Notes under the pieces: model-generated
What the model was told of the DNA's origin: nothing
The model's database searches: none
What the model saw: the letters and a program-made list of their open reading frames with translations, nothing else
Made by a program: the position numbers and the translations under genes
IMG/VR virus record: IMGVR_UViG_3300009703_002891
Span: 1 to 33,725 of that record
Source of the DNA: a virus
Direction: 5' to 3' (one strand)
Length of the DNA stretch: 33,725 nucleotides
Part shown: piece after piece, positions 10,802-15,573 of the stretch
How positions within the stretch are numbered: the stretch's first letter is position 1
Layout of the letters: each line of letters opens with the position of its first letter

Positions 10802-10828
10802 CGTGTACGACGCGGCCCCGGCTGTCAA
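10802..10828 (-). promoter_or_regulatory. Possible promoter of the initiator gene
   Basis: Reading leftward, TTGACA at 10823-10828 overlaps the end of the methyltransferase gene. It is followed by GTCGTACACGATGAG, which resembles the -10 region of the capsid promoter (GTCGTATGGCTGAG). The -10 match (TACACG at 15-base spacing or CACGAT at 17) is weak. The short gap before the initiator gene makes a promoter plausible. Confidence 0.35.
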
Positions 10829-11736
10829 CCGGTGCGCCTCGTCGTGTGAACCAGGATCTCGCCCACTGGCGCCCGCTTCGATGTGTCCGAGTTCACCGTC
10901 CCGGGCCGCTCGATGCGTGTCACGTGGAACGGTTCGACCGACCACATCGCGACCGCCTCAGGGCAACCCGAGTTCGACACGATGACGTGCACCCCTCGGG
11001 CGGCCAGGTCGAGGGCGATCGACCTCAGGCGCAAGTGGTCGTCGAAGCCGAACCCCTCGGGGGTGTAGCCGTCGAAGTCGCCGAGGTATGGCGGGTCGAA
11101 GTACACGAGGTCGCCGGCTTCTACCTTGTTGAACAAGGTCGACCGGGACGAGGCGAATAGCCCCAGCTGCGCGCGCGCGGTTGCCTGCTCGACAACGGGA
11201 ACCCCGTCGAGGGCGACACTGCAGGCGCGAATCAAGTCGGCGTCGACTTTGACCTCGAGCGGCGCACCGTTGGCCGACTTCCCGGCGGCGACGTTCGGCG
11301 CGCCGGCCTGGTTGACCCTCCACAGGCCATTAAACCCGAGTTGCTGGTGCGCGATGAGGGCGGCTGCGACCCTCGGCGAGGGGTGCGTAGCAGCGTCGGC
11401 CAGGAACGCGCGCAACGACTCGAAGAGGCCGGCGACGACCTCGTCGCGTTTCATCGTCGCGGCCAGCTTCAGGGGCCAAAGGTCGCGCAGCTGCCGAATC
11501 ACCTCCTCGGGGTCGTCCCGAATGCCCCGATAGGCCTGTACGACCGCCGGGGCCGCATCGGCGAGGACCGCGCCCCCTTCGAGGCGCCCCTGCGCGGCCA
11601 GGTCGAAGAACATCGCGCCCCCGCCGACGAACGGGTCGAAGTACCGCCCGAACTCAGCAGGGACGACTCGACGGAGCTCGGGGAGTAGGGCGCGCTTGCC
11701 CCCGACCCACTTCCACAAGGGAGCGGGGGCGGTCAT
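10825..11736 (-). CDS. DNA adenine N6-methyltransferase (Dam/D12 class)
   Basis: This 303-residue enzyme would transfer a methyl group from S-adenosylmethionine to adenine. The D12-class marks are clear: WVGGKRALLPEL at 10-21, the SAM-binding FDPFVGGGAMFFDL at 33-46, FNGLWRVN at 135-142, and the catalytic DPPY at 214-217. The length is normal for the family. There is no paired restriction gene, so it is a solitary methylase; likely roles are evading host restriction or marking the origin. The recognition site cannot be read from sequence; GATC is typical of Dam relatives. The ATG overlaps the stop of a 17-codon upstream frame as ATGA. Confidence 0.92.
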   Translation of the reverse strand: MTAPAPLWKWVGGKRALLPELRRVVPAEFGRYFDPFVGGGAMFFDLAAQGRLEGGAVLADAAPAVVQAYRGIRDDPEEVIRQLRDLWPLKLAATMKRDEVVAGLFESLRAFLADAATHPSPRVAAALIAHQQLGFNGLWRVNQAGAPNVAAGKSANGAPLEVKVDADLIRACSVALDGVPVVEQATARAQLGLFASSRSTLFNKVEAGDLVYFDPPYLGDFDGYTPEGFGFDDHLRLRSIALDLAARGVHVIVSNSGCPEAVAMWSVEPFHVTRIERPGTVNSDTSKRAPVGEILVHTTRRTG

Positions 11737-11826: not shown

Positions 11827-12858
11827 TCAGGCCGCCGACGACTCGCCGCGCAACCCCGAGGCCATGCCCTCGAAGAGACGCAGCTGATCACCGCCGAGAA
11901 ACCCGAACTCGGCCAGGCGTTCGGGGGTGTCTTCCCGGCGCAGGGCTTCGACGACGACCTCGGCCACCTCGGGCGAGGTCACGCCGAACGCGGCCACCTC
12001 GGCCGCGAATGCTTCGACGTCGTGGGCGACCACGCGCAGGCGCAGGTCGACGACCTCGAAGTGATTCAACTCGTGGAAGATCATGCGCCGCCGTTCGTCG
12101 TGGGTCGCGGCCATCCACCACGACAGGGCGATGTCCAGCGTTCCATACGGCGGCGCGCCCCCGGCGCCGTTCATCCGAGCTCGGTCGCGGTCGGACACAC
12201 GGCGCGAGTGGCCGATCGCTACCCGCCCCTTCGACTTCCACGGATCCCTACGCCACGTCCACCCGATGCCCTCGGGGTGATCGTGCAACCAGGCGGCCAG
12301 GCGGGGGAAGTGGTCGCGGTAGTCCCGAACGACCTCGTCGAGGATCGACCACACATCGAGGGATTCCAGGCCCTTGACCTCGCGCAGGGCCTCACCGGCG
12401 AGGAACCGAGGCAGGCCGACGACCGACACGCCCTCGGATCGCTGCAGGGCGTCTTCCCCCTCGGCGGCCATGGCGTCGGCCAGGGAATCGCGCAGCAGGA
12501 TAACCGCGCAGGGTTCGACGGGCGACACGAACGGGCGCCGATCGTCTGACTTCAACCAGGCCTCGTGCTTCCCCCCGTCGGCTTCGAGGTACGCCCGATA
12601 TTCCCCACACGAGGACGGGTTGTAGAGGGTCCCGTATGCCTCCATCACGGAGCGAAAGCGCCGCTCTTTGCGGTCGCGTTCCTCGACGGTGCTGGCCGTC
12701 TCGGGGTGCGAGTCGGCGACACACTCGCGCCAGGCGCGGCGCACCTTGTCGGCGTCGGGGTAGTCGAACTTCAACGACGACTGATCGACGCCGATTTTGA
12801 GCCCGAGCACGCCGTAGAACGACGGCGCCTGAAGATATTGGGGTTTGTTCTTAGCCAT
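11827..12858 (-). CDS. J-domain / HExxH metallopeptidase fusion protein
   Basis: This 343-residue protein combines two recognisable parts. Residues 13-91 match a DnaJ J-domain: FYGVLGL opening, helix II (VRRAWRECVADSHPE) with HPE at 51-53 in place of the usual HPD, then FRSVMEAYGTLYNP and EYRAYL. Residues about 240-300 hold HELNH (262-266), a zincin HExxH, with His279 (AHDVEAF) as third ligand, resembling the putative phage metallopeptidase family. J-domains stimulate DnaK ATPase; the HPE change may weaken that. The protein could target a chaperone client or host factor for cleavage. The 8-base overlap with the RuvC-like gene indicates coupled expression. Domains are seen by eye; function is inferred. 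Confidence 0.7.
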   Translation of the reverse strand: MAKNKPQYLQAPSFYGVLGLKIGVDQSSLKFDYPDADKVRRAWRECVADSHPETASTVEERDRKERRFRSVMEAYGTLYNPSSCGEYRAYLEADGGKHEAWLKSDDRRPFVSPVEPCAVILLRDSLADAMAAEGEDALQRSEGVSVVGLPRFLAGEALREVKGLESLDVWSILDEVVRDYRDHFPRLAAWLHDHPEGIGWTWRRDPWKSKGRVAIGHSRRVSDRDRARMNGAGGAPPYGTLDIALSWWMAATHDERRRMIFHELNHFEVVDLRLRVVAHDVEAFAAEVAAFGVTSPEVAEVVVEALRREDTPERLAEFGFLGGDQLRLFEGMASGLRGESSAA

Positions 12859-13351
12859 TCACGGCCCTCCGGTTGTAGAAAAGGCGCCCATACAGGGCGA
12901 GGCAGGCCGCGTCGACGATCCCCTCGTGGGGGACTCGGCAGCGGGCCGGGATGAGTGGTAGCCGGGGCAGGGTCGCCTCGACGTGCGCCAGGGCGTCGGC
13001 CTTTGTTTGGCCGCCCTGCAGGGGCAGGCCGAGGCCGCGGCGCCATTCGTTCGGCGTGACCTCGAGGACGTCGAAGCCGGCGCACCGCAACACGGCGCGA
13101 ACCTCGCCGAATGACCGATGCATCCCGGCGACGGCCTTCGCCGACCTGGCGCCGCCGGGGCGCTCGATGAACGCGACGACGCCAGGGGAACCTGCAGGGG
13201 TCGATCGCCACCATCCGGCGACGAGGTCGCGCAGTCGTTCGGGGTGTTCGTGGTAGCCGTCGGGGCCGTCGGCCCTGGCCGCGAACATCCCGACGAACGG
13301 GTCGAGGCCCACGATCCCCCCGGCCGCGCCGGTGTCAACCCCGAGGATCAC
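12851..13351 (-). CDS. RuvC-like Holliday junction endonuclease
   Basis: This 166-residue protein starts at the GTG at 13349-13351, overlapping the repressor stop as GTGA, with VILGVDTGAAGGI holding the first catalytic Asp. FIERPG supplies a Glu, GFDVLEVTPNEWRRGLGL matches the conserved VTPxxW segment, and HEGIVDAACLALYG near the C-terminus gives the last Asp. This is the RNase H-fold RuvC-like family common in phages, which cleaves branched DNA before packaging and recombination. The length is typical. A longer frame upstream is open but lacks family similarity, so I prefer the GTG start. The partner for recombination is probably the RecT-like protein encoded rightward. Confidence 0.82.
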   Translation of the reverse strand: MILGVDTGAAGGIVGLDPFVGMFAARADGPDGYHEHPERLRDLVAGWWRSTPAGSPGVVAFIERPGGARSAKAVAGMHRSFGEVRAVLRCAGFDVLEVTPNEWRRGLGLPLQGGQTKADALAHVEATLPRLPLIPARCRVPHEGIVDAACLALYGRLFYNRRAVNG

Positions 13352-13560
13352 GTCGAGGCCTCGGCCGCCGGGGGCACGAGTTCGGCGGTCTCGACTCCGC
13401 AGTGTGCAGCGATGACCGGCAACCAGGACGCCCGACACGAGCTCGTCCCGGCTTCGATGCGGTGCAGCTGTTGACGAGTGATCCCCAGGACGCGCGCCAG
13501 GGCGACGACTGAGACTTCCGCGGTTCGGCGCGCGCGCCGTATTCGTTGGCCGGTGTGCAT
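13348..13560 (-). CDS. Xre/Cro-type helix-turn-helix repressor
   Basis: This 70-residue protein is essentially one DNA-binding domain: RIRRARRTAEVSVVALARVL, then GITRQQLHRIEAG, the Xre-family recognition helix pattern, at residues 6-41. It lacks any dimerisation or cleavage domain, so it is nearer to a Cro-like or minimal repressor than to a full CI. It sits first in the leftward unit, divergent from the rightward operon, and its predicted transcription start coincides with the ATG at 13558-13560. The likely target is the palindrome at 13591-13614. It is the main candidate for the regulator of the early switch. Confidence 0.8.
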   Translation of the reverse strand: MHTGQRIRRARRTAEVSVVALARVLGITRQQLHRIEAGTSSCRASWLPVIAAHCGVETAELVPPAAEAST

Positions 13561-14276: not shown

Positions 14277-14407
14277 GGCGCGCCCCGACGGTCATCGTCG
14301 GGTGCGTCCTGGTCGCCGCCTGGTTCGGGTGGATCGTCTACCTCGTCGCGACGATGGCCCCCGAACTCGAATCACCTACACCCACCACCACCACGGATAG
14401 ACCATGA
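14273..14407 (+). CDS. Small single-pass membrane protein
   Basis: This 44-residue product has a hydrophobic segment at residues 7-28 (VIVGCVLVAAWFGWIVYLVA) and a Thr/Pro-rich tail (TPTTTT). Both ends overlap neighbours as ATGA, so it is translated together with the preceding gene and the RecT-like gene. Function unknown. Confidence 0.55.
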   Translation: MRRAPTVIVGCVLVAAWFGWIVYLVATMAPELESPTPTTTTDRP

Positions 14408-15573
14408 CGAACCACAGGAACCGCAACCAGGGCCGGCGCGACGGGCGCCAACTCACCGACCGAGAAGCGTTCGGGATTCGCGTCAACCAGCGCGCGCGGC
14501 CGCAGTGCGAGGAGCTTCTAGGGTCGAAGGCCGGGCGCCAGGTCGCGCAGCGCATCACGATGGCGATCCTTTCGTCGATGCAGGCGGCCCGGGACCCCTC
14601 GGGGTTCTTCCACTGCACTGACCTTTCCTTGTCGTCCTGCATCGCCTTGTCGGCTCAGACCCGACTCATGCCCGGCGGCCCCTACCCGGCCGTGTACCTC
14701 GTGCCCCAGGCGCCCCGGCGCGGCGCGCCGCCCGAGTTGCAGTGGCGGATCACCACCCGGGGGATCGCGATCCTCGCCGCCCGAAACGGGTTCGGGGTTC
14801 GGGCCGTGCCCGTCGGCGCTAACGACTTCCTGCAGGTGAGCCTCGGCGAGGTCGTCGAACACAACGGCGACCCCGGATACTGGCCGGTCGACCTGAGTGA
14901 GATCGCTGGCGTCGCCGTCATCGTGCGCGACCTCGAGCACGGGCACGACGTCATTCGGGCATGGGTCCCCCTCGACGTCATCGTGCGCCGCCGAGATATG
15001 GCGCGCACCGATAAGATGTGGCGCGAGTGGCCTATCGAAATGGCGCAGAAGACCGCTATCAAGTACGCCATGGCGCGCGGAATCATCCCCCTCGACTCGC
15101 CCGAGCTCGCGACCGCCCTCACCGAAGAGATCGGGGATGCGGTCATCGAGGGCACGGCCCGCGCGGTCGAGCAACTGCCCGAACGGGGGCGCGAACTTCC
15201 CCAGCGCCAGGCCCCGGCGCTGCCTGACAACGGGCCGACCTTCGACGAGTTCGAGCACGCGCGGCCCGAGGAACGGGAACGGGTCGCCGCCGGCGCGCCC
15301 CCAGTCGTCGACGCGCAGGTCGAGGCCCCCGTCGACCCTCAGGCCCCGACCGGCGACCAGACGCTCGCACAGGTCAAAGCCGACTGCGCCCGACTCGAAA
15401 GCCAGCTGCACGGGGCGGCCGTCTCGGACATTCGAGAGAAGTTCGGGCCGCCGGGAACCGAGTCGGTGACGTCGTGGAAGGGACGGATCACGGCCGCGAC
15501 CGAGTATCGCGACGCCCTGCAGTCTGAGCTCGACGCCGAGGCGAAGCGCATCGGGGCCGGGGGTGCTTCTTGA
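14404..15573 (+). CDS. RecT-like single-strand annealing protein
   Basis: This 389-residue protein matches the RecT/Bet-like annealing family. The segment around residues 70-165 has the expected AxxxxLxPGGxxPAVYLVP, then ITTRGIAILAARNG, and residues about 205-230 carry WREWPIEMAQKTAIKYAMARGIIPL, the RecT hallmark of a Trp-rich stretch before KTAIK. Its C-terminal third (after about 245) is an Ala/Pro/Glu-rich extension with a predicted helix, likely disordered. Such proteins anneal strands at replication forks and repair ends. No phage exonuclease partner is visible in the window, so it may work with a host nuclease or alone. Confidence 0.85.
   Translation: MTNHRNRNQGRRDGRQLTDREAFGIRVNQRARPQCEELLGSKAGRQVAQRITMAILSSMQAARDPSGFFHCTDLSLSSCIALSAQTRLMPGGPYPAVYLVPQAPRRGAPPELQWRITTRGIAILAARNGFGVRAVPVGANDFLQVSLGEVVEHNGDPGYWPVDLSEIAGVAVIVRDLEHGHDVIRAWVPLDVIVRRRDMARTDKMWREWPIEMAQKTAIKYAMARGIIPLDSPELATALTEEIGDAVIEGTARAVEQLPERGRELPQRQAPALPDNGPTFDEFEHARPEERERVAAGAPPVVDAQVEAPVDPQAPTGDQTLAQVKADCARLESQLHGAAVSDIREKFGPPGTESVTSWKGRITAATEYRDALQSELDAEAKRIGAGGAS

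Follow-up and report, generated by a model that had tools for sequence, protein, structure and literature searches.

A single gene of this phage encodes a protein in which an N-terminal J-domain is joined to a C-terminal metallopeptidase domain of the PF18894 (PhageMetallopep) family. The window, by which we mean the whole stretch of DNA analysed here, is an entire virus record of 33,725 bases from a high-GC phage, and the fusion gene occupies positions 11827-12858 on its minus strand, with the ATG at 12858 and the stop codon ending at 11827. The first-pass annotation had given exactly this span, leaving the strand unstated, and its reading of the gene as a fusion of a J-domain with a zincin stands: both domains lie in one intact open reading frame and both score far above 20,000 shuffled sequences. 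The features of the gene and its surroundings are:

10825..11736, minus strand: D12-class adenine DNA methyltransferase (Dam-like), next gene downstream
11827..12858, minus strand: J-domain/PhageMetallopep fusion gene, 343 aa plus stop
11956..12366, minus strand: PF18894 PhageMetallopep domain, residues 165-301, minigluzincin-like model, Pfam match at 185-301
12007..12024, minus strand: HDVEAF, residues 279-284, with His279 the likely third zinc ligand by alignment
12061..12075, minus strand: HELNH, residues 262-266, predicted zinc-binding and catalytic motif
12367..12579, minus strand: linker, residues 94-164, low-confidence helices, no family match
12580..12822, minus strand: J-domain, residues 13-93, Pfam match at 35-87, predicted helices at 36-49, 58-79 and 81-93
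12700..12708, minus strand: HPE (CAC CCC GAG), residues 51-53, in place of HPD, by codon reading
12851..13438, minus strand: RuvC-like Holliday junction resolvase, directly upstream (phrog_1770, phrog_159)
12866..12870, minus strand: GGAGG ribosome-binding site, 7 nt 5' of the fusion-gene ATG
14404..15573, plus strand: RecT-family single-strand annealing protein, divergent from the fusion gene

The frame runs through 343 codons without an internal stop or a change of phase, GC3 stays between 0.79 and 0.89 in each of five segments, and the three-position GC pattern is like that of other genes of the same phage. The start of the gene overlaps the end of the upstream resolvase gene by 8 nt. The single open reading frame, the uniform GC3 and a GGAGG of its own thus show the gene to be genuine and rule out a reading-frame artefact as the source of the fusion. 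As to the record itself, the contig ends (1-578 and 33147-33725) overlap by ~579 bases at 94.8% identity, and this overlap spans the start of one and the same gene, a putative capsid gene. The record therefore probably represents a full, circularly permuted genome of ~33.1 kb whose closure joins two strain variants. A defence-system library gave no match.

The fusion gene sits between the resolvase and the methylase, ~8 kb from the terminase gene. Together with RecT, these neighbours point to DNA metabolism instead of the host-takeover or assembly role that had been suggested for the protein, and the resolvase and methylase context also fits DNA roles other than the one that we propose. No Hsp70 gene was found within the window, so any partner of the J-domain must be supplied by the host.

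The N-terminal half matches PF00226 (DnaJ) at residues 35-87 with an E value of 7.7e-5 and 23.2 bits, just below the cut-off of 27.8 (hmmscan, Pfam); at genome level the DnaJ match reached 24.7 bits alone and 29 bits with in-frame neighbours, where it was flagged as above the cut-off. As a control, models of the J-domain and the metallopeptidase were rebuilt without the fusion protein and scored against 20,000 shuffles. Against the rebuilt J model the fusion protein scores 27-30 bits and against the rebuilt metallopeptidase model 59-61 bits; the highest-scoring shuffle reached 11.6 bits with either model. These scores, close to the Pfam cut-off on either side but far above the shuffles, make the proposed N-terminal J-domain probable over residues ~13-93. 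Its first ~34 residues diverge from the family: there is little support for helix I, and ~10 extra residues stand between it and helix II. AlphaFold, run with an alignment, predicts helices at 36-49 and 58-79 on either side of the HPE, and a third helix at 81-93. A structure search against solved J-domains gave weak matches (2dmx, Z 2.9; 2qsa, Z 2.8), so the J-domain call rests mainly on sequence.

HPE, HELNH and His279 all occupy the positions first reported, and the canonical HPD tripeptide is absent from the protein. All of the 103 other viral J-domain ORFs, fetched by patterns admitting both D and E, have HPD, and an HPE is thus out of the ordinary for a phage J-domain. Two apparent HPE matches among these ORFs were discarded on finding that the HPE lies upstream in the ORF and that the true motif reads HPD. 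HPE is the sole replacement of HPD that is apparently tolerated, as in E. coli DjlB and DjlC, and the documented HPE proteins pair with HscC rather than DnaK (PMC13254874). This tolerance speaks against a dead J-domain, and the idea that HPE marks a decoy that lures DnaK is not borne out. DjlB and DjlC resemble the fusion protein in their HPE J-domain with an Hsp70 partner (HscC), but they are tail-anchored membrane proteins that lack a protease. Type IV (pseudo) J-domains have a non-conservative replacement of HPD, and the D-to-E change here is conservative. In DnaJ, D35 touches R167 of DnaK (PMC13012618; PMC8215388), a contact that the Glu of HPE could in principle make as well. HPE weakens membership of the J-domain proteins (class C) in the strict sense, and leaves the possible mode of action intact.

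The C-terminal half matches PF18894 at residues 185-301 (E 4.9e-8) with 33.6 bits, above the curated Pfam cut-off of 23.7. Across 33 aligned sequences (the fusion protein and 32 relatives), H262, E263, L264, H266, H279, D280, E282, F284 and G292 are invariant; most of the relatives were picked by a pattern demanding the first eight of these residues, and G292 was never selected for. The lineage of Acinetobacter-type relatives (L006) carries HDVEEF though it was not selected for HDxExF. In the AlphaFold model made with an alignment, ten-residue means of pLDDT lie at 88-95 over residues 171-280, with one at 85, and at 75-81 on to residue 310. The model comprises an active-site helix (253-264), a hairpin (267-276), a helix at 281-291 and further helices and strands; a fold prediction from the single sequence was of too poor quality to be read. 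The first seven ranks among PDB matches to the protease model are all held by minigluzincins (selecase, jannalysin and abylysin) at Z 6.6-7.8, followed by Acel_2062 at Z 6.2 and then SPRTN at Z 5.5-5.7, all values below Z 8, where a match may reflect merely a common arrangement. The model puts HExxH on the helix that corresponds to that of the minigluzincins. The best viral structure match was a putative phage metallopeptidase (E 7.9e-5). Profile matches to the minigluzincins in the PDB were marginal (E 0.026-0.07), and HtpX gave 0.0019.

These archaeal minigluzincins differ from the fusion protein in standing alone, at ~110 aa, without a J-domain. Four archaeal control genomes also match PF18894, among them that of Methanocaldococcus jannaschii. 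Because minigluzincins fill ranks 1-7 and PF18894 occurs in M. jannaschii, the source of selecase and jannalysin, the two groups are likely, but not proven, to be related. The literature yielded no published assay or activity for any PF18894 member. In many phages PF18894 proteins are labelled 'transposase' (for example matches H2, H9, H41, H43, H54 and H57), a widespread mislabel apparently carried by phrog_513.

What is new in the protein is the fusion, for which we found no earlier description in the open-access literature searched; the protease half belongs to a common phage family. A DNA pattern for HELxH...HDxExF retrieved 38 viral loci and a looser pattern extended the set, in which at least 158 ORFs fit the metallopeptidase model, or at least 155 loci once the window and its copy (L001) are subtracted. 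Among the matches listed, we found no J-domain fused in the 155 other PF18894 loci, and no PF18894 domain fused in the other 103 viral J-domain ORFs. Three candidates were set aside: L074, a DNA-pattern match with no metallopeptidase ORF on inspection, whose genome was negative for PF18894; L004, an out-of-frame chance match; and L225, a weak match of 18.9 bits. At the sensitivity used, the whole fusion protein gave no tblastn match in 50,697 phages and 72,556 plasmids, and exact-peptide scans retrieved neither the fusion protein from IMG/VR and GTDB genomes nor the terminase of this phage from IMG/VR. The fusion is thus apparently singular in the collections searched, both of its parts being known separately.

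Elsewhere, counts of neighbouring genes place PF18894 beside RusA, RuvC, DUF1064, DNA methylase, ParB-like, terminase and head genes, and in two phages the separate gene stands in a cluster with a J-domain gene:

L232:218-2505, minus strand: J-domain, PF18894 and RusA-like cluster, co-directional
L319:3230-5573, plus strand: J-domain, PF18894 and RusA-like cluster, co-directional

In L232/L287 the genes run in the row ERF, YqaJ, J-domain (phrog_9210), PF18894 and RusA-like, the last label having been given to the short ORF of L232 by eye and by no library, and in L319 the order is PF18894, RusA-like ORF and J-domain. L232 and L319 are unrelated phages that differ in gene order, and their separate-gene clusters are a two-gene counterpart of the fusion. 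In a further phage (L013), PF18894 lies near a J-like gene and YqaJ- and RecT-like genes, the last two named by eye. The two genes seldom adjoin (2 of 80 J loci), so we treat their adjacency as a pointer and not as a statistic, and claim no enrichment over background.

Phage J-proteins of phrog_9210 ('DnaJ-like chaperonin') are often found near RecT, Bet, ERF, YqaJ or Cas4 genes. In Gordonia phage Bunnybear the adjacent or nearby genes include RecE/RecT; in Synechococcus phage Ssp-JY39, Bet; in Caulobacter phage Sansa, one resembling SSB; and in Microbacterium phage Gazebo, a recombinase along with a Cas4 exonuclease. Among the nearest neighbours of 80 loci of this type in IMG/VR, DNA methylases, integrases, RecT, ERF, YqaJ and RusA recur by count. 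The phrog_9210 proteins differ from the fusion protein in having a C-terminal J-domain with HPD present or lost, another N-terminal domain and no protease. The HPD segment has been lost from the J-like proteins of Erythrobacter phage R6L (L280:4001-4606) and Caulobacter phage Sansa (L282:3980-4597), and relatives keep it.

The reading that we tentatively favour, at somewhat less than even confidence, is that the protein acts as a J-domain protein of class C through which host DnaK would be led to a protease of minigluzincin-like type at phage DNA complexes. The N-terminal J-domain, HPE included, would bind the host's DnaK, or a relative of DnaK, and set off ATP hydrolysis; DnaK would then locally unfold a protein bound in a nucleoprotein complex, or pull it apart, and the tethered HELNH/H279 centre, if it binds zinc as predicted, would cleave the exposed chain. 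That the J-domain delivers DnaK clients to the protease is plausible. Minigluzincin-like proteases are small, and exposed chains should suit them best. Hsp70 is known to dismantle nucleoprotein complexes, for example lambda O-P-DnaB (PMC8215388). Because the fusion gene sits among DNA-processing genes, we propose that the target would most likely belong to the phage's own complexes for recombination, replication or the steps before packaging, or else be a host protein trapped on the phage DNA.

The likeness to the PF18894 (phrog_513) family at large lies in the domain itself, its HELxH-HDxExF motifs and its DNA-metabolism surroundings, with the difference that the members found here have no J-domain. 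A functional parallel may be drawn with Wss1 and SPRTN, minigluzincin-like zincins paired with an ATP-driven unfoldase, and would be a parallel and not an established homology. Wss1 is minigluzincin-like and works with Cdc48 (PMC4559962), and SPRTN has three His ligands and binds p97 (PMC5128726). The His that follows the first HExxH His lies 17 residues on in the fusion protein, against 19 in SPRTN (H111 to H130). These enzymes use short motifs to recruit p97/Cdc48, where the fusion protein would call on Hsp70 by way of its J-domain; the fold match to SPRTN is also low, and we recognised no DNA-binding module in the fusion protein.

Among the other accounts, the J-like half may be a docking or DNA-complex module that makes no use of Hsp70, after the manner of type IV J-like proteins, the fusion merely localising the protease. 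HPE in place of HPD, the weak helix I, a Glu (Glu45) at the position of DnaJ R27 in a manual alignment and the complete loss of HPD from some phrog_9210 J-like domains would agree with this, but HPE is reported as tolerated (PMC13254874) and R40 and R44 retain the positive charges of helix II in the same alignment; we consider it doubtful. We hold it unlikely that the protein is a takeover protease, led by its J-domain to host DnaK or to DnaK clients (sigma-32-like factors or the DnaJ network, for instance), so that such clients would be destroyed during infection. J-domain and protease do share one chain, and the available part of one report describes a phage-encoded J-domain protein, RB43 gp057w, that acts on host DnaK and sigma-32 (PMC3486835), although that protein has HPD and the same part reports no protease domain in it. 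Against this account, the fusion gene is surrounded by DNA-processing genes and not by a takeover block, and relatives without a J-domain adjoin RusA, RuvC, DNA methylase, ParB-like and terminase genes.

A chance fusion of adjacent genes of a DNA-metabolism operon, with halves that work uncoupled or have decayed separately, would agree with the solitary occurrence of the fusion among the PF18894 and J-domain loci counted above and with the adjacency of unfused J and PF18894 genes in other phages. With one example found, no case for selection on the fused form can be made; still, the motifs (HPE aside) and the coding signal are kept in both halves, and we judge an accident of this kind quite unlikely. 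A protease of assembly or virion maturation, with the J-domain recruiting DnaK to the head, would suit those PF18894 genes that adjoin terminase or head-morphogenesis genes, but the distance from the terminase and the flanking resolvase and methylase leave it very improbable.

Returning to the recruitment of host DnaK to a protease at phage DNA complexes, a more specific form, for which we see only a slim chance, is that host Hsp70 serves as the unfoldase that lets a small minigluzincin clear tightly bound or crosslinked proteins off phage DNA; if true, this would be the Hsp70 counterpart of Wss1-Cdc48 and SPRTN-p97. If the J-domain recruits DnaK, the protein would provide a bacterial-virus parallel to the eukaryotic protease-unfoldase pairs that clear DNA of proteins. 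Nature has also provided here a way to ask whether an HPE motif can activate Hsp70. Phages commonly carry PF18894 proteases, which have no function on record as far as we found, and the fusion, with the neighbouring J-domain, protease and resolvase-like genes in other phages, is a testable clue that the family may work on proteins of phage DNA complexes once a chaperone has remodelled them.
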